NCBI RefSeq assembly: GCF_028898845.1
Contig: NZ_CP118574.1
Location: 3,844,001-3,908,000, forward strand
Direction of reading: 5' to 3'
Source of the DNA: Streptomyces sp. WZ-12
GTDB taxonomy: Bacteria; Actinomycetota; Actinomycetes; Streptomycetales; Streptomycetaceae
DNA: 64,000 nt
A program made the position numbers and the translations under genes. Of the stretch, positions 530 to 58,213 are shown in pieces. The notes under the pieces were generated by a model. That model worked only from the letters and a program-made list of their open reading frames with translations, was not told where the DNA came from and did no database searches. How positions within the stretch are numbered: the first letter of the stretch is position 1; every line of letters begins with the position of its first letter.

Positions 530-2446
530 TCAATCGGTGACGACGGCGAGCAGCGTGCCCACCTCGACCTGTTGGCCCGTGCGGACGGGAAGGGCGGTCA
601 GCGTGCCGGCCACCGGTGCGGTGATCTTGTGCTCCATCTTCATGGCCTCCAGCCACAGCAGCACCTGGCCGGCCGTGACCCGGTCGCCCTCGGCCAGCCC
701 GTCCGCGATCCGGACGACCGTGCCGGGCATCGGGGCCAGCAGCGAACCGGGCTCCCTACGGGCGGCGGGGTCCGGGAACCGGGGCAGTGCGGTCAACGCC
801 CGGGCGCCGGACGCCGCATCGACGTACACCCGGTCGCCGTACCGGGCGACCGCGAACGCCCGCCGCACCCCGTCGACCTCCAGCACCACCTCGTCCGCGG
901 CCAGGCCGAGCAGTCGGACGCCGGGGAAGCCCTCGGCGTCCAGCCCGTCCCGCCCGAGGCGGTAGCGGACCTCGTGGACGGCCTCCCCGTGGGCGTAGCG
1001 CTTGGTCTGCGGGCCGGCGGGGACGTTGCGGAAGCCGCCGAAGCGGGAGCGGCCGTGTGCGTCGGCGAGCGCGGCGGCCAGCGCGCAGAGCGCGTCGCCG
1101 GCGGTCTCCGGGGCGGTCAGGGCGCCGAGGTTGCGGTCGTAGAACCCGGTGTCCAGTCCGCCGGCGCCGGCGAATTCGGGGTGCCGCAGCGAGCGGACGA
1201 GGAGGTCGCGGTTGGTGACCGGGCCGTGGATCTCGGCCCGGTCCAGGGCGCCGGCCAGCTTGCGGATCGCCTCGGCGCGGGTCGGCGCCCAGGCGATGAC
1301 CTTGGCCAGCATCGGGTCGTAGTGGACGGTGACCTGATCGCCGTCCCGTATGCCGGAGTCCAGCCGGACGCCGTCCGGTACCTCGATCCGGTGCACGGTG
1401 CCCGTCTGCGGCTGCCAGCCGGCCGCCGGGTCCTCCGCGTAGAGCCGGGCCTCGACGGCGTGGCCGCGCGGCTCGGGCAGCGCGGCCGGCAGCGGTCGGC
1501 CCTCGGCGACGGCCAGTTGGAGGGCCACCAGGTCGAGCCGGTAGATCTCCTCGGTGACCGGGTGCTCCACCTGGAGCCGGGTGTTCATCTCCAGGAAGTA
1601 CGCCCGGCCGTCGCCGGACACCAGGAACTCGACGGTGCCCGCGCCCCGGTAGTCGATGGCCCGCGCGGCCTGCGCGGCGGCCCGGTGCAGGGCGTCCCGG
1701 AGCCCGTCGGGCAACCCGGGTGCCGGGGCCTCCTCGATGACCTTCTGGTGCCGGCGCTGGAGCGAGCAGTCCCGGGTGCCCAGCGTCCAGACCGTGCCGT
1801 GCGCATCGGCGAGCACCTGCACCTCGACGTGGCGCCCGCCCTCCACATACGGCTCGACGAAGACCTCGCCGTCCCCGAACGCGGCCGCCGCCTCCGCCCG
1901 CGCCGACGCCAACTCGCCGTCCAGGGCTTCGAGTTCGCGCACCATGCGCATGCCCCGTCCACCGCCACCGGCCGCCGCCTTCACCAGCAGCGGCAGGTCC
2001 CCCGCGCCGGCCGCGGCCGGATCGACCGGCGCCAGCAGCGGCACCCCCGCCGCCGCCATCAGCTCCTTCGCGCGCGTCTTGGACGCCATCGCCGCGATCG
2101 CGGCCGGCGGCGGCCCGATCCACACCAGCCCCGCGTCCGCCACCGCCGCGGCGAACTCCCGGCTCTCGGAGAGGAAGCCGTACCCCGGGTGGACCGCGTC
2201 CGCCCCGGCCGCCAGCGCCGCCTTGACGATCAACTCGCCGCGCAGATAGGTCTCCCCGGCCGCCTCGCCCGGCAGCCGGACCGCGACGTCCGCCTCCCGC
2301 ACGTGCGCGGCCGCGGCGTCCGCGTCGGAGTACACCGCGACGGTGGCGATGCCCCGTTCACGGCAGGTGCGGAAGATCCGCCGGGCGATCTCCCCGCGGT
2401 TGGCGACGAGCACCGAACGGATCTCACCGGAATCAGTCGTTGTCAC
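530..2446 (-). CDS. Acyl-CoA carboxylase alpha subunit (biotin carboxylase plus biotin carrier domain)
   Basis: A 638-residue protein that carboxylates its own biotin using ATP and bicarbonate. The N-terminal biotin carboxylase fold starts SVLVANRGEIARRI; the ATP-grasp region carries KAAAGGGGRGMR, and the active-site region holds FLEMNTRLQVEHPVTE. The C-terminal carrier domain has the biotinylation motif EAMKMEH with the modified lysine near residue 603. This length and order match 3-methylcrotonyl-, geranyl- and propionyl-type alpha subunits. The GTG start at 2446 follows TGAGG, only 7 bases after the beta-subunit stop, so the two are co-translated. Given the AtuA-like neighbour, a branched or isoprenoid acyl-CoA is the likelier substrate. 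That substrate assignment is inference. Confidence 0.93.
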   Translation of the reverse strand: MTTTDSGEIRSVLVANRGEIARRIFRTCRERGIATVAVYSDADAAAAHVREADVAVRLPGEAAGETYLRGELIVKAALAAGADAVHPGYGFLSESREFAAAVADAGLVWIGPPPAAIAAMASKTRAKELMAAAGVPLLAPVDPAAAGAGDLPLLVKAAAGGGGRGMRMVRELEALDGELASARAEAAAAFGDGEVFVEPYVEGGRHVEVQVLADAHGTVWTLGTRDCSLQRRHQKVIEEAPAPGLPDGLRDALHRAAAQAARAIDYRGAGTVEFLVSGDGRAYFLEMNTRLQVEHPVTEEIYRLDLVALQLAVAEGRPLPAALPEPRGHAVEARLYAEDPAAGWQPQTGTVHRIEVPDGVRLDSGIRDGDQVTVHYDPMLAKVIAWAPTRAEAIRKLAGALDRAEIHGPVTNRDLLVRSLRHPEFAGAGGLDTGFYDRNLGALTAPETAGDALCALAAALADAHGRSRFGGFRNVPAGPQTKRYAHGEAVHEVRYRLGRDGLDAEGFPGVRLLGLAADEVVLEVDGVRRAFAVARYGDRVYVDAASGARALTALPRFPDPAARREPGSLLAPMPGTVVRIADGLAEGDRVTAGQVLLWLEAMKMEHKITAPVAGTLTALPVRTGQQVEVGTLLAVVTD

Positions 2447-2453
2447 GGGAACC

Positions 2454-4052
2454 TCACATCCGGAAGACGCCGAAGCCGCCCCGCGCGCCCTCGACCGGCG
2501 CGGTGTGGACGGCGGACAGGCACAGGCCGAGGACGGTGCGGGTGTCGCGCGGGTCGATGACGCCGTCGTCGTACAGCCGCCCGGACAGGAACATCGGCAG
2601 CGACTCGGACTCGATCTGCTGCTCCACCATGGCGCGCAGCCCCGCGTCCGCCTCCTCGTCGTAGGGCTGCCCCTTCGCCGCGGCCGAGGCGCGCGTCACG
2701 ATGGAGAGCACCCCGGCGAGCTGCTGCGGCCCCATCACCGCGGACTTGGCGCTCGGCCAGGCGAACAGGAACCGCGGGTCATAGGCCCGCCCGCACATCC
2801 CGTAGTGCCCGGCCCCGTACGAGGCGCCCAGCAGGACGGACAGGTGCGGCACCCGCGAGTTCGACACCGCGTTGATCATCATCGCGCCGTGCTTGATGAT
2901 GCCGCCCTGCTCGTACTCCTTGCCGACCATGTAGCCGGTGGTGTTGTGCAGGAAGACCAGCGGGATGTCCCGCTGGTTGGCCAACTGGATGAACTGCGCC
3001 GCCTTTTGGGACTCCTCGCTGAACAGCACCCCCTGCGCGTTCGCCAGGATGCCCACCGGATAGCCGTGCAGCCGTGCCCACCCGGTCACCAGGCTCGCCC
3101 CGTACAGCGGTTTGAACTCGTCGAAGTCCGACCCGTCGACGATCCGCGCGATCACCTCCCGCGGGTCGAACGGCGCCTTGAGGTCGCCGGGCACGATCCC
3201 CAGCAGCTCCTCCTCGTCGTACCTCGGCGGCTCGGCGGGCCCCGGATCGGCGTGCGCCTTGCGCCAGTTGAGCCGCGCCACCACCCGCCGGGCCTGCCGC
3301 AGTGCGTCGGGCTCGTCGAGGGCGAAGTAGTCCGCCAGCCCCGACGTCCGGGCGTGCATCTCGGCCCCGCCCAGCGACTCGTCGTCGCTCTCCTCGCCGG
3401 TCGCCATCTTCACCAGCGGCGGCCCGCCGAGGAAGACCTTGGCCCGCTCCTTCACCATGATCACGTGGTCCGACATCCCGGGCACGTACGCGCCCCCGGC
3501 CGTCGAGTTCCCGAAGACCACCGCCACCGTCGGAATCCCGGCCGCGGACAGCCGCGTCAGGTCCTTGAAGAGCGCCCCGCCCGGGATGAAGATCTCCTTC
3601 TGGCTCGGCAGGTCGGCCCCGCCGGACTCCACCAGGCTGACCACCGGCAGCCGGTTGGCGAACGCGATCTCATTCGCCCGCAGCGCCTTCTTCAGCGTCC
3701 ACGGATTGCTCGCCCCGCCGCGCACCGTCGGATCATTCGCCGTGATCAGGCACTCCACGCCCTCGATCACCCCGACCCCGGTGACCAGCGACGCGCCCAC
3801 CGCGTAGTCGCTGCCCCACCCCGCGAGCGGCGACAGCTCCAGGAACGGCGTGTCCGGATCGACCACCAACTCGATCCGTTCCCTGGCCAGCAACTTGCCC
3901 CGTTTGCGGTGCCGTTCGACGTACTTCTCCCCGCCGCCCGCCAACGCCCTGGCATGCTCCCCCGCCACCTCCCCCAGCTTCTCCCGCATCGCCGCCCGCC
4001 GCTCGCGGTACTCGGCGCCGGCGGTATCGAGCGCACTCCTCAGCACCGTCAC
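2454..4052 (-). CDS. Acyl-CoA carboxylase beta subunit (carboxyltransferase)
   Basis: A 532-residue carboxyltransferase that moves CO2 from carboxybiotin to an acyl-CoA; it should pair with the alpha subunit 7 bases downstream. The crotonase-like fold has two oxyanion Gly patches, recognisable at ESGGADLPSQ and NSTAGGAYVPGMSD in the N-half, and NTTGYMVGKEYEQGGIIKHG in the C-half. This last stretch resembles methylcrotonyl/geranyl-CoA carboxylases more than propionyl-CoA carboxylases. The start is set by GTG at 4052, which overlaps the stop of the upstream gene as GTGA and has GGAGGTG 5-6 bases before it. A longer reading from 4094 would have no such signal and would overlap the upstream gene. 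Confidence 0.92.
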   Translation of the reverse strand: MTVLRSALDTAGAEYRERRAAMREKLGEVAGEHARALAGGGEKYVERHRKRGKLLARERIELVVDPDTPFLELSPLAGWGSDYAVGASLVTGVGVIEGVECLITANDPTVRGGASNPWTLKKALRANEIAFANRLPVVSLVESGGADLPSQKEIFIPGGALFKDLTRLSAAGIPTVAVVFGNSTAGGAYVPGMSDHVIMVKERAKVFLGGPPLVKMATGEESDDESLGGAEMHARTSGLADYFALDEPDALRQARRVVARLNWRKAHADPGPAEPPRYDEEELLGIVPGDLKAPFDPREVIARIVDGSDFDEFKPLYGASLVTGWARLHGYPVGILANAQGVLFSEESQKAAQFIQLANQRDIPLVFLHNTTGYMVGKEYEQGGIIKHGAMMINAVSNSRVPHLSVLLGASYGAGHYGMCGRAYDPRFLFAWPSAKSAVMGPQQLAGVLSIVTRASAAAKGQPYDEEADAGLRAMVEQQIESESLPMFLSGRLYDDGVIDPRDTRTVLGLCLSAVHTAPVEGARGGFGVFRM

Positions 4053-5752
4053 AGCAGCACCTCCGGTATCTCCACATGGCGGGAGCGCAGCCACTCCCCC
4101 AGCGCCTTGGCCTGCGGGTCGAACCGCGCCTGCGCGGCGACCCCCTCCCCCAACAGCCCCTCGACGGTGAAGTTCACCGCCCGCAGATTCGGCAGCACCG
4201 TGCGCCGCACCTCCAACTCGGCGACCTCCGGCAGCAGTTGTCGCACCCGCTCGACCGTCAGCTCATGCGCCAGCCACCGCCACGCGTCCTCCGTCCGGAC
4301 CCACACCCCGACGTTCGCCGCCCCGCCCTTGTCCCCACTACGGGCCCCGGCGACGATCCCCAGGGGAACCCGCCGGGTCGGCCCGTCCGGCAACGGCACC
4401 GGAAGCTCCGCCGCCACCACCTCCAACTCACCGACAACGGGCGGCACATGCGGCACCTCCACCCGCTCCCCGTCGTCCCTCACGGCCACCTGCCGCACGC
4501 CCTCCGCCGCCACGTACGCCGCCTCGAACACCCCGTAAGGGGCGCCCTTCCCCGGCGGCGCCGTCACGTGGAAACCGGGATAACTGGCCAACGCCAGCTC
4601 GATCGCCGCCCCGCTCACCGCCCGCCCCACGGCCTCCGGGTCCGGATCCCGCACCACCAGCCGCAGCAGCGCACTGGCCTCCTCCTGCACCCCCGCGTCC
4701 GCGCGACCGGTCCGCGCCAGCGACCAACGCACCTCCCGCGGACGGCGCTTCACACGCCCCAACGCGTCCTCCACCTGCCCCCGCACCAGCGCCGCCTTGG
4801 CGTCGATGTCGAGCCCGGTGAGCACGAACACCACCTCGTTGCGCCAGCCGCCCATCCGGGTCAGCCCGACCTTCAGCGTGGCCGGCGGCGCCTCCCCCCG
4901 CACCCCGTCGATCCGCACCCGGTCCGGCCCGACCTCCGCCAGCCGCACGGTGTCCAGCCGCGCCGTCACATCCGGCCCCAGGTAGCGCGCACCCCCCGTC
5001 TCGTACAGCAACTGGGCGGTGACCGTCCCCACGCTCACCGCGCCCCCGCTCCCCGGGTGCTTGGTGATGACAGCGCTGCCATCGGCATGAATCTCCGCCA
5101 CCGGAAACCCAGGCCGCCGCACGTCCCCCAACTCCCGGAAGAACGCGTAGTTCCCACCCGTCGCCTGCGTCCCGCACTCCACCACGTGCCCCGCGACCAC
5201 CGCGCCCGCCAGCCGGTCGTAGTCGTCCGCCGCCCACCCGAAGTGCGCCGCGGCCGGCCCACTGACCAGCGCCGCATCCGTCACCCGCCCGGTCACCACG
5301 ACGTCCGCGCCCGCCCGCAGACACTCCGCGATGCCAGCACCCCCCAGATACGCGTTGGCGGTGAGGACCCCCTCCCCCCACCCCCGCCCCACCAGGTCAT
5401 CACCCTCGACATGCGCCACCCGCACCGGAACCCCGACCCGCTCCCCCAACTCCCGCAGAGCGCGGGCGAGTCCGGCCGGATTCAGTCCCCCCGCATTGGT
5501 GACGATCCGCACGCCGCGCTCGACGGCGAGCCCCAGCCCCTCCTCCATCTGCCGCAGGAACGTCTTGGCGTACCCCCACCGCGGATCCTTCAGCCGGTCC
5601 CGCCCCAGGATCAACATCGTCAACTCGGCCAGGTAGTCGCCGGTCAGGACGTCCAGCGCCCCACCCGTCAACATCTCCCGCACGGCCTCGAACCGATCCC
5701 CGTAGAAACCGGACGCGTTCCCGATCCGCAGCGGCTCCCGCACGCCCGTCAC
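4049..5752 (-). CDS. AtuA-family (DUF1446) acyclic terpene utilisation protein
   Basis: A 567-residue protein of the AtuA/DUF1446 family. In Pseudomonas the family is encoded with the acyclic terpene (citronellol/geraniol) degradation genes; its biochemical role is not settled. The N-terminal start REPLRIGNASGFYGDR is typical, followed by TNAGGLNPAGLA and GADVVVTGRVTDAAL. The C-terminal part (about residues 445-560, from PLGIVAGARSGDKGGAANVG) is the small second domain found in actinobacterial members. The GTG start at 5752 overlaps the stop of the TIGR03084 gene as GTGA, and its own stop overlaps the carboxyltransferase start. This tight coupling with a biotin-dependent carboxylase supports a shared branched acyl-CoA pathway. 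Confidence 0.87.
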   Translation of the reverse strand: MTGVREPLRIGNASGFYGDRFEAVREMLTGGALDVLTGDYLAELTMLILGRDRLKDPRWGYAKTFLRQMEEGLGLAVERGVRIVTNAGGLNPAGLARALRELGERVGVPVRVAHVEGDDLVGRGWGEGVLTANAYLGGAGIAECLRAGADVVVTGRVTDAALVSGPAAAHFGWAADDYDRLAGAVVAGHVVECGTQATGGNYAFFRELGDVRRPGFPVAEIHADGSAVITKHPGSGGAVSVGTVTAQLLYETGGARYLGPDVTARLDTVRLAEVGPDRVRIDGVRGEAPPATLKVGLTRMGGWRNEVVFVLTGLDIDAKAALVRGQVEDALGRVKRRPREVRWSLARTGRADAGVQEEASALLRLVVRDPDPEAVGRAVSGAAIELALASYPGFHVTAPPGKGAPYGVFEAAYVAAEGVRQVAVRDDGERVEVPHVPPVVGELEVVAAELPVPLPDGPTRRVPLGIVAGARSGDKGGAANVGVWVRTEDAWRWLAHELTVERVRQLLPEVAELEVRRTVLPNLRAVNFTVEGLLGEGVAAQARFDPQAKALGEWLRSRHVEIPEVLL

Positions 5753-55416: not shown

Positions 55417-55884
55417 ATGACCGACCTTGCCACCGTTTCCACCGAAATAGCCCCATATCTCGCCATAGCGGCCAACAGCCTGGGCACCTCCGTCCTCACC
55501 GCCGCCCAGGACCGGATCGCCGAACGCACCGTGACCGCCGGCGAGGGCTTCTTCCGCCGCCTGCTGCACCGCCGCGACACCGCCCTCGGCGAAGACCCCG
55601 CGCAGCCGCTCCTCGACGCCGACCGCGCCGACGCCCTCGACCGCCTGCTGGCCACCCTCGACGACGGCGACCGCCGGCTGCTCGCCGCCGCCCTGACCGC
55701 CTGGCTGAACTCCCCCGAGCACGACGCCGACGGCTTCCGCCGGCACGTCGCCCAACTCGCCGCCGGCGGCCCGCGGATCACCTACAACAACCCCACCGCG
55801 ACCGGCCAGGGCTCCATCGCCGCCGGCGAGATCCACGGCACCATCAACATGGGAGGCGGCCCCCAGACGCGGGACGACGCATGA
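55417..55884 (+). CDS. Cytosolic helical protein with C-terminal Gly/Asn amyloid-like motif
   Basis: 155 residues, no named family. Residues 10-115 are helical: YLAIAANSLGTSVLTAAQDR, AERTVTAGEGFFRRLLHRRD, then DDGDRRLLAAALTAWLNSPE. The C-terminus ends in a Gly/Asn-rich motif: YNNPTATGQGSIAAGEIHG followed by TINMGGG. The same motif (NN-x-T-x2-G-x2-SIAAG-x-I) occurs at the N-terminus of the next protein. GGAGAGG is 5 bases before the ATG, and the stop overlaps the next start (ATGA). The helical part may be an adaptor; the tail resembles RHIM-like/bacterial amyloid-signalling segments. Function is inferred only. Confidence 0.78.
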   Translation: MTDLATVSTEIAPYLAIAANSLGTSVLTAAQDRIAERTVTAGEGFFRRLLHRRDTALGEDPAQPLLDADRADALDRLLATLDDGDRRLLAAALTAWLNSPEHDADGFRRHVAQLAAGGPRITYNNPTATGQGSIAAGEIHGTINMGGGPQTRDDA

Positions 55885-56624
55885 GCACCCGGCGACCACC
55901 CCGCCCGCCCCAGGGACCCACCCACAACAACGCCACCAGCCACGGCGACCACTCCATCGCCGCGGGCAACATCCGCAACGTCGTCATCCGCTGGGCCCTG
56001 CAACACCCCAGCGCCCGCTGGCTGCCCCTGCTCCTGGCCTGCGCCGCCCTGCTCCTCGCCGGCACCACCTGGCCGGACGGCCCGGCCACCCAGTACGCCC
56101 TGTGGGCCGTCCTGGTCGCCCTCTCCCTGGCCACCGCCGCCGCCCGCGTCCTCGTCCAACGCCCCCGCGACGCCCGGATCGTGGCCGCCCTCTCCCTCGT
56201 CTCCGTCCTGGCCAGCGTCGGCGGCTGGCTGGCCTTCCGGAACGTGGCCACCCACGGCGAGCTCGACGTGACCGGCAAGATCACGCTCCAGGGCCGGCAA
56301 CCACTGGACGACACCGCCCACCGCACCGTCACCCTGCGCCTGGAACCCTCCTCCCTGAAGGGGAGCCGCAACGCCCTCCGCGTCACCCTGGCCATCGAGG
56401 ACCAGGACCCCGCCGGCCCGACCTGCGTCCCGGACTCCTCCGCCACCGCCTCGCTGATCAGCTCCGGCGTGCCCTCCCAGCAGCAGAGCGTCAACCCCGA
56501 CGGCACCGCCGACTTCGACCTGGGTGCGCAGGCCGACGCCGTACGGATCGAGGTCACGCTGACCACCGGCCCCGGTTGCCGGATGAACGTCCGACCCACG
56601 CGGGTCACGCTCCACGACCGGTGA
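55881..56624 (+). CDS. Three-span membrane protein with N-terminal amyloid-like motif and outer beta domain
   Basis: 247 residues. The cytosolic N-terminus holds THNNATSHGDHSIAAGNIRN, matching the tail of the preceding protein at 11 of 22 aligned positions. Three hydrophobic spans follow (about 45-63 WLPLLLACAALLLAGTTW; 68-90 YALWAVLVALSLATAAARVL; 97-118 ARIVAALSLVSVLASVGGWL). The odd number puts the 125-residue beta-rich C-terminus outside (HGELDVTGKITLQGRQPLDD; two cysteines, CVPDSS and GCRMNV, could form a disulfide). It is coupled to the gene before by ATGA, and a solute-binding lipoprotein gene follows after 29 bases. Confidence 0.8.
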   Translation: MSTRRPPRPPQGPTHNNATSHGDHSIAAGNIRNVVIRWALQHPSARWLPLLLACAALLLAGTTWPDGPATQYALWAVLVALSLATAAARVLVQRPRDARIVAALSLVSVLASVGGWLAFRNVATHGELDVTGKITLQGRQPLDDTAHRTVTLRLEPSSLKGSRNALRVTLAIEDQDPAGPTCVPDSSATASLISSGVPSQQQSVNPDGTADFDLGAQADAVRIEVTLTTGPGCRMNVRPTRVTLHDR

Positions 56625-56653
56625 ACCACCGCACGCACGAGAAACGGGGACCC

Positions 56654-57514
56654 ATGCACTTCCGCACCACCGGCATCGCGGCCGCGCTCGCGCTCACCGC
56701 GCTCACCGCCACCGCGTGCAGTTCCAGCGAGCCCGCTTCGCTCTTCGCCTCCGGAAAAGTCCTGGTGGGCGTGAAAAGCGATCAGCCGGGCACCGGATAC
56801 TTCCCGGACGGCTACAACCCGTCCGGATTCGACATCACCCTCGCGCGGCACATCCTCAAGACCGTTGGCGCGGAACCGGATTTCAGCGCCGTCCCCTCCG
56901 AGGACCGGCTCACCGTGCTCACGGGGAAGAAGAAGGACCTGATCATCGCGACCTTCTCCATCACCCCCGACCGCATGAAACAACTCGATTTCGCGGGCCC
57001 CTACGCCAATACCCGACAGGGAATCATGGTCCGCAAGAACGACCACCGCATCACCAAACCCTCCGACGTCATCGGCAAACGCGTCTGCGCCTGGCCAGGC
57101 ACCACCTCGTACAACACCCTCAACGGCCCGGAGGGCGCGGGCATGAAGGTCTACCAGTCGCAGACCGCCCAGGGCTGCATCACCGACCTGCTGAACAAGA
57201 CCGCCGACGCCGTCTCCACCGACCAGATGATCCTCTACGGATTCACCCAGGAACACCGCGACCTCAAGGTCATCCCCAACATCACCTACGGGCCCTTCAA
57301 CCAATACGGCATCGCGATGGACAAGGGACACCACGCCGACTGCGTCAAAATCCGCGACGCGCTGAAGGATTATGTCTCGGGCAGCAGTTGGAGCCAGGAC
57401 TTCTCCACCACCCTCCCGTCCATTCCGCATGCCGACCCCGATTGGGAGGGCCACTACAAGCCCCGCACGGCCAACATCGACGCCCTCTCCTGCCGCGCCA
57501 AGCCCGCCTTCTGA
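56654..57514 (+). CDS. Solute-binding lipoprotein (SBP_bac_3, GlnH-like)
   Basis: 286 residues. Lipoprotein signal LALTALTATAC with the lipidated Cys near residue 22. A type II amino-acid-binding fold follows: GKVLVGVKSDQPGTGYF, PSGFDITLARHILKTVGAEP, LIIATFSITPDRMKQLDFAG, YANTRQGIMVRKND, GKRVCAWPGTTSYNTL. Polar amino acids are the usual ligands. No permease or ABC ATPase gene adjoins, so it is likely a sensor subunit rather than part of an importer, comparable with GlnH, which signals through GlnX to PknG. The last gene of the cluster, 29 bases after the membrane protein. Confidence 0.88.
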   Translation: MHFRTTGIAAALALTALTATACSSSEPASLFASGKVLVGVKSDQPGTGYFPDGYNPSGFDITLARHILKTVGAEPDFSAVPSEDRLTVLTGKKKDLIIATFSITPDRMKQLDFAGPYANTRQGIMVRKNDHRITKPSDVIGKRVCAWPGTTSYNTLNGPEGAGMKVYQSQTAQGCITDLLNKTADAVSTDQMILYGFTQEHRDLKVIPNITYGPFNQYGIAMDKGHHADCVKIRDALKDYVSGSSWSQDFSTTLPSIPHADPDWEGHYKPRTANIDALSCRAKPAF

Positions 57515-57532
57515 CCGGACACAATGACGCCC

Positions 57533-58213
57533 ATGACCGACCCCCGCCCCACCCTGGCCGCCCGTTGGACGGCCACCGTCGCGCAGGCCCGCGACACCGC
57601 CCAGGAAGGCCCCGACCCCGCCCCGTACGCGGACAACCTGCTGCGCCGCTGGGCCGAGCCACAGCGTCGCTACCACACCACCGACCACCTCATCGCCGTC
57701 CTCGACCGGATCGACGAACTCGCCGCGCACGCCGAGGACTTGCCCGCCGTCCAGTTGGCGGCCTGGTTCCACGACGCCGTCTACCGGCCCGACCGCTCCG
57801 AGAACGAGGAGCGCAGCGCCGCCCTCGCCGAGCGCGCCCTCCCCGAACTGGGCGTCGACGCGACCCGCACCGCCGAGGTGGCCCGCCTCGTCCGCCTCAC
57901 CGTCACCCACGACCCGGCGCCCGAGGACCGCAACGGCGCCGTGCTGTGCGACGCCGACCTGGCCGTCCTGGCCGGCGGCCCCGACGCGTACGCCGCCTAT
58001 GCCGCCGCCGTCCGCGCCGAGTACGGCTTCGTCCCCGACCCGGACTTCCGGGCCGGCCGCGCCACCGTGCTCCGCCAACTCCTCGCCCTCCCCCGCCTGT
58101 TCCGCACCCCGTGGGCACACGACCAGTGGGAGGGCGCGGCCCGCCGCAACCTGGCGACCGAACTCGCCCTCCTGGAGAGCGGCGGCGCCCCCGTTACCGG
58201 CGACGGCGACTAA
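57533..58213 (+). CDS. HD-domain metal-dependent phosphohydrolase-like protein
   Basis: About 226 residues. Motifs: RRYHTTDHLIAVLDRIDELA, LAAWFHDAVYRPDRSENEER (His-Asp pair) and AVLCDADLAVLAGGPDAYAA (distal Asp), as in predicted HD-superfamily hydrolases of this length. Substrate unknown. ATG 57533 is preferred because CACAAT lies 7 bases upstream; ATG 57524 would add three residues. It follows the lipoprotein gene by 18 bases but seems to have its own promoter. Confidence 0.85.
   Translation: MTDPRPTLAARWTATVAQARDTAQEGPDPAPYADNLLRRWAEPQRRYHTTDHLIAVLDRIDELAAHAEDLPAVQLAAWFHDAVYRPDRSENEERSAALAERALPELGVDATRTAEVARLVRLTVTHDPAPEDRNGAVLCDADLAVLAGGPDAYAAYAAAVRAEYGFVPDPDFRAGRATVLRQLLALPRLFRTPWAHDQWEGAARRNLATELALLESGGAPVTGDGD

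Follow-up and report, generated by a model that had tools for sequence, protein, structure and literature searches.

Gene organization and encoded proteins

The window, that is, the whole analysed stretch of 64,000 nucleotides, belongs to a genome 9.5 Mb in size, assigned to the Streptomyces type from named homologues, and contains three + strand genes in tandem, here called P1, P2 and P3, whose close packing had been described in an earlier note on this DNA and is confirmed at the coordinates listed in Table 1. The ATG of P2 overlaps the stop codon of P1 by 4 nt. An HD-phosphohydrolase-like gene, assigned by eye and without a significant Pfam match, is located 9 nt downstream of P3 (window positions 57524-58213); half of the named loci introduced below (11 of 22) share this gene, which is missing from the remaining trio contexts.

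Table 1. Genes, motifs and predicted domains of the trio (positions in the window)
Feature	Position	Strand	Description or basis
P1, putative effector	55417..55884	+	155 aa; helical domain at about residues 1-116, then low-confidence C-terminal tail with motif
P1 C-terminal motif, residues 124-145	55786..55851	+	pLDDT <50 over residues 118-155
P2, putative membrane receptor	55881..56624	+	247 aa; motif at the N-terminus, then three predicted spans and an outer beta domain
P2 N-terminal motif, residues 16-37, predicted cytosolic tail	55926..55991	+	motif alignment, co-variation
P2 predicted membrane spans, residues 45-62, 67-91, 98-125	56013..56255	+	AlphaFold2 helices
P2 extracytoplasmic beta domain (Cys182, Cys233), residues 134-247	56280..56621	+	model, alignment
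P3, family 3 solute-binding lipoprotein	56654..57514	+	286 aa; lipobox-like Cys22; Pfam SBP_bac_3

For P1, family searches gave no significant protein family match and no kinase match. Its predicted structure contains helices within residues 3-115 at a mean pLDDT of 63.5, and at this low confidence the structural comparison yielded no clear fold match; the motif-bearing tail is modelled at the still lower values given in Table 1. At least 55 relatives of P1 and at least 36 relatives of P2, each including the query, were collected by homologue search, and the motif is conserved in the aligned sets of 48 and 35 proteins, respectively. Streptomyces appears in every source name of these relatives that gives an organism.

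In family searches P2 gave no NTPase family match, and it is predicted to be a membrane protein rather than an NLR (NB-ARC/NACHT). Its AlphaFold2 model (mean pLDDT 72; residues 9-33 at low confidence) places a helix at residues 26-41, the three helices interpreted as membrane-spanning, and strands between residues 134 and 245, in agreement with the three spans and outer beta domain that had been claimed from the sequence. The Arg-rich loop between TM2 and TM3, its charge being read from the sequence, suggests a topology with the N-terminus inside and the C-terminus outside. Both cysteines of the beta domain are invariant in 13/13 aligned P2 proteins.

P3 belongs to the SBP_bac_3 family (Pfam, E 2e-20) and is related to GlnH of M. 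tuberculosis (6h1u, E 1.4e-18). Its Arg107, Thr151 and Asp190 occupy positions common to amino-acid-binding proteins. Across 63 distinct P3 proteins, the Arg in the SITPDR stretch, the Thr in GTTS and the Asp in STDQ are each kept in 61. Four further cysteines are kept in 62-63 of the 63, and a lipobox-like site is present in 56 and missing in 7. None of the 22 named loci, covered with as much as 8 kb of flank in either direction, shows the signature of an ABC ATPase (Walker A plus LSGG motif), and the description of P3 as an amino-acid-type binding lipoprotein with no ABC ATPase nearby is supported.

Taxonomic distribution and genomic context

The 22 named loci were obtained by scanning named genomes with the P2 profile. 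P3 follows P2 in all of them, and matches to the P1 model, which was partly built from four of these same loci, lie upstream of P2 in 22/22, one (L031) being shortened, so that the trio is conserved across genomes as had been anticipated. The CutC and/or HD-MFS flanks of the window recur in 11 of the 22 loci and are absent from the other 11, which argues that the trio itself is the unit.

In the genus sample, a match to the P2 model was detected in 45 of 392 genomes, or about a tenth of the sampled Streptomyces genomes, corresponding to 46 loci after the joining of split matches. P3 was found beside P2 in 44 of these; the two exceptions are a locus at a contig end (L074) and a weak, unconfirmed match (L084). 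An adjacent partner was identified at 30 loci, 29 via the P1 model and one (L071) via a matched motif. In the family sample, P2 was present in 24 of 249 genomes, spread over 4 of the 17 genera, and P3 adjoined it in all 22 loci examined, part of which overlap with the genus sample. The class-wide sample gave P2 in just 9 of 394 genomes. Neither P1 nor the motif is seen at about a dozen of the P2-P3 loci, and the P2-P3 pair must therefore have other outputs.

Several loci depart from the common arrangement. In one (L082; G219, 2282-3493), the motif of the P2 homologue is replaced by an additional N-terminal domain with weak cyclase likeness (E 0.06), and P3 still follows; the receptor may here be coupled to an alternative output module. 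Three P2-P3 pairs lacking the motif (L070, L075, L078) are positioned 3' of a LacI-type regulator gene, as judged by eye, and possibly form a separate sensor subfamily. At L089 (G353, 2975-3826), P2 has a CutC-like gene in its vicinity, just as it does in the window, no P1 was found nearby, and the N-terminus of P2 bears a different motif-like sequence with no adjoining partner.

Variation also affects P1. Internally shortened P1 genes, in which the beginning of the helical domain and a vestige of the tail survive, were observed in L031 (Embleya hyalina), L159, whose P1 sequence is identical to that of L031, and L162, with P2 and P3 remaining in place. In L145 (G285, 3148-4194), a single reading frame runs from a P1-type helical domain into a membrane span and then pentapeptide-like repeats. 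A second, unlinked copy of P1 was noted in L146 (G175:C17:157000-165000, 3360-3956), in a genome that also has the trio; this copy carries a trio-like motif, the next gene encodes a different membrane protein, and the copy is possibly a second effector recruited in trans.

Matching and co-variation of the P1 and P2 motifs

The match between the C-terminus of P1 and the N-terminus of P2, reported in the earlier note with 11 identities, is real but comprises 10 identities over 22 positions. Taken on its own, the window pair is only suggestive and of modest significance, since 9 of 2000 shuffles score as high as the full-length local alignment of the two proteins. The family-wide tests place the P1-P2 motif match far beyond chance. 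At the DNA level, the two motif segments of the window are identical at 43 of 66 positions, and duplication or conversion may therefore add to their similarity.

For the co-variation test, the P1 C-termini (50 aa) were aligned with the P2 N-termini (75 aa) and the partners were permuted, with the loci grouped by identity of the P2 ectodomain, which makes the grouping blind to the motif. In the cleanest set, 49 pairs with partners identified by the P1 model alone, own pairs scored 54.2 versus 33.2 for cross pairs (z 14; reached in 0 of 20000 permutations). The own partner was the best one in 14 rows and 15 columns, a row count that is low because close relatives share motifs. The signal persisted among 27 representatives with ectodomains less than 70% identical (z 10.4; 0 of 20000 permutations as good) and among 12 representatives below 50% (own 47.2 versus cross 28.2; z 5.7; 0 of 20000), where the own partner ranked first in 7/12 rows and 8/12 columns and was not the best in 5/12 rows. 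For the six representatives below 40%, own partners were best in 6 rows and 5 columns, and 28 of 20000 permutations were as good. It had been expected that the motif would be found in orthologues, where it is indeed present and co-varies between the partners. Inclusion of L071, L088, L166 and L170 extends the set to 53 pairs, for which 31 representatives gave z 13, 16 representatives gave z 8.6, and among the 9 representatives below 40% the own partner ranked first in all 9 rows and in 7 columns, all of these values being biased upward because the four added partners were selected by position and motif match. Four control region pairs in the 53-pair set, among them the helical part of P1 versus the P2 N-terminus and the P1 tail versus the P2 ectodomain, showed no co-variation (z -1.5 to 1.4).

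A motif model for which only P1 tails were used, with a threshold above the 99th percentile of shuffles, matched the P2 N-termini in 38 of 44 loci with P1 and in 0 of 18 loci without a P1 match. The latter group includes L071 and L088, where the adjoining partner matches in motif but is of another type, L074, in which the N-terminus is partly masked, and L089 and L082. Because the model contains the tails of the 44 partners themselves, the test was repeated with loci left out: 40 of 44 P2 N-termini beat at least 99 of 100 of their own shuffles when their own locus was omitted, and 35 of 44 did so when all loci more than 50% identical were omitted. The remaining P2 N-termini, 6/44 with the full model and 9/44 with relatives left out, fell below the threshold.

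Five loci (L071, L088, L163, L166, L170) have quite different motifs, each common to both partners; shuffles as good as the real match numbered 0 of 2000 for L071 and 1 of 2000 for L088. The upstream protein is recognised by the P1 model in L163 and is not recognised in the other four, in which both the motif and the effector therefore differ while P2-P3 stays.

Relationship of P1 to NLR-type gene pairs

Outside the trios, P1 shows a different association. The P1 model matched 44 places in 40 of 295 genomes, 22 of them trio P1s, at places that coincide with P2 loci of the genus sample, and 22 outside trios. Among 20 of these 22 non-trio places that were examined, 17 adjoin a next gene with a motif-like start, the match between the upstream tail and this start being judged by eye. 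All 17 next genes have a STAND/AAA NTPase match (NB-ARC, NACHT, AAA_16 or nSTAND) with a Pfam E-value of 1e-3 or better, 9 of them above Pfam's cut-off, and 13 of the 17 have TPR repeats. Three more P1 homologues, namely those at the other two of the 22 places and one further case, adjoin genes of the NB-ARC (E 8e-9), NACHT and AAA_16/NB-ARC types; in the NACHT case the match is just under the cut-off (E 7e-6), and NPHP3_N is above the cut-off in the same gene. With a motif model made from the NLR-linked tails, 24 of 44 trio P1s exceeded the threshold, 23 of these within the tail, as did 21 of 44 trio P2s. Since its homologues occur beside NLR-type NTPases, P1 is homologous to the effector member of NLR-type pairs whose motifs match. 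For the same reason P1 is better read as an effector than as the adaptor it was originally taken for.

Pairs of this kind follow the layout of the Bell/BASS-NLR amyloid signalosomes of filamentous bacteria, of which Dyrka et al. 2020 is reportedly the founding paper. In the layout described for Bell/BASS, the effector carries a C-terminal motif and the adjacent receptor gene a matching N-terminal motif (PMC7889193; PMC8086366; PMC12261475). From this layout, rather than from a published model, we infer that the P1 domain would correspond to the published Bell domain and that the trio motif could be assigned to a BASS class. A review poses as an open question whether signalling amyloids also operate in NLR-independent bacterial pathways (PMC7889193). 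In the open literature searched, no bacterial amyloid-type receptor other than NLRs was found to be described, which does not prove absence.

Proposed signalling mechanism

On the strength of these sequence comparisons, it is likely that the trio represents an NLR-free amyloid-type signalling module in which the signal passes from P3 through P2 to P1. P3, with its established family and pocket signature, would capture an amino-acid-like ligand at the cell surface and would engage the outer beta domain of P2, as the constant linkage of the two genes suggests. As a result, the cytosolic N-terminal motif of P2 may be clustered or released, and would then recruit P1 via the matching motif at the P1 C-terminus. 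Such homotypic pairing of the P1 and P2 motifs is supported by their co-variation and by the motif exchange, and by analogy with BASS it could involve cross-beta templating between the two proteins. Clustering would activate the helical domain of P1, which probably halts or kills the compartment at the membrane, the least certain step of the scheme. We lean slightly towards a more specific form of this reading, namely an NLR-independent, envelope-ligand-gated amyloid signalosome with a death-type effector and an exchangeable motif plug, the motif type being swapped together with the effector while the receptors keep their sensing half. Of the three-part sensing system first proposed for this locus, the trio, the shared motif and the P3 signature are thus retained, but not the adaptor role of P1, the likeness to GlnX beyond layout, or the number of identities.

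It is unlikely that the motifs instead form a matched non-amyloid docking pair, by which P1 would sit on P2 as a cytosolic subunit or adaptor through short beta-strand pairing, with a metabolic signalling output like that of GlnH-GlnX-PknG. The placement of the motifs at the effector C-terminus and the receptor N-terminus follows the Bell/BASS layout (PMC7889193), and the homologous P1 domain adjoins NLR-type NTPases, even though co-variation would fit specific docking of whatever kind, P3 and the GlnH of M. tuberculosis (6h1u) are related, and the P2 homologue with the weakly cyclase-like N-terminus (L082) shows that other outputs occur. Quite improbable is a second alternative, in which P2 and P3 form a conventional ligand-sensing or uptake-related pair, P1 with its motif is a loose passenger, and the motif likeness is a product of local duplication or gene conversion. 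The P2-P3 loci without P1 and the DNA identity of the window motifs are in line with it; against it, own-pair matching persists at ectodomain identities below 50% (z 5.7), the P1-type motif was seen in none of the P2 proteins where P1 was unrecognised (0/18), and an ABC ATPase was found nearby in none of the 22 loci. That the match arises by chance or from the base composition of a high-GC genome can practically be dismissed, given family-wide permutation values of z 5.7-14 and flat control regions, despite the modest result for the single window pair (9 of 2000 shuffles).

If the trio is indeed an NLR-free signalling module, a membrane or envelope receptor would fill a role assigned so far in bacteria to receptors inside the cell. 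The trio may then serve as a concrete candidate for NLR-independent bacterial signalling amyloids with a plausible chemical input, so that both the question of NLR independence and that of the signalosome input become testable in harmless Streptomyces, with the naturally swapped motif pairs as built-in specificity controls.

Comparison with known systems

The trio differs from ABC amino-acid transporters in having no ABC ATPase near P3 in any of the 22 named loci. Some caspases of multicellular bacteria have transmembrane helices followed by an extracellular periplasmic-binding-protein domain (2020, PMC7159879), an arrangement that resembles the sensing half of the trio; in contrast to the trio, these domains are fused to the caspase, and the word amyloid is absent from the main text of that report.

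The GlnH-GlnX-PknG system of mycobacteria and corynebacteria likewise combines a solute-binding lipoprotein, a membrane relay and a cytosolic output (PMC9769921), and P3 is a GlnH-type solute-binding lipoprotein related in sequence to GlnH. The resemblance of P2 to GlnX holds for the overall layout only, because published GlnX crosses the membrane four times and its outer domains are entirely helical (PMC9769921), whereas the model of P2 shows three predicted spans and an outer domain made of beta strands throughout. Unlike that system, the trio contains no kinase, P1 being without a kinase match.

With Bell/BASS, the trio shares a small putative effector, predicted to be helical, with a C-terminal motif and an adjacent or overlapping receptor gene with a matching N-terminal motif; the P1 domain is also homologous to the small proteins adjoining NLR-type NTPases, and the motifs are related. 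The difference lies in the receptor, which in the trio is a predicted three-span protein with an outer beta domain and an associated solute-binding lipoprotein, and in which no NTPase was found. It looks as if the NLR receptor of the Bell/BASS signalosome had been replaced here by a membrane receptor together with a solute-binding lipoprotein.
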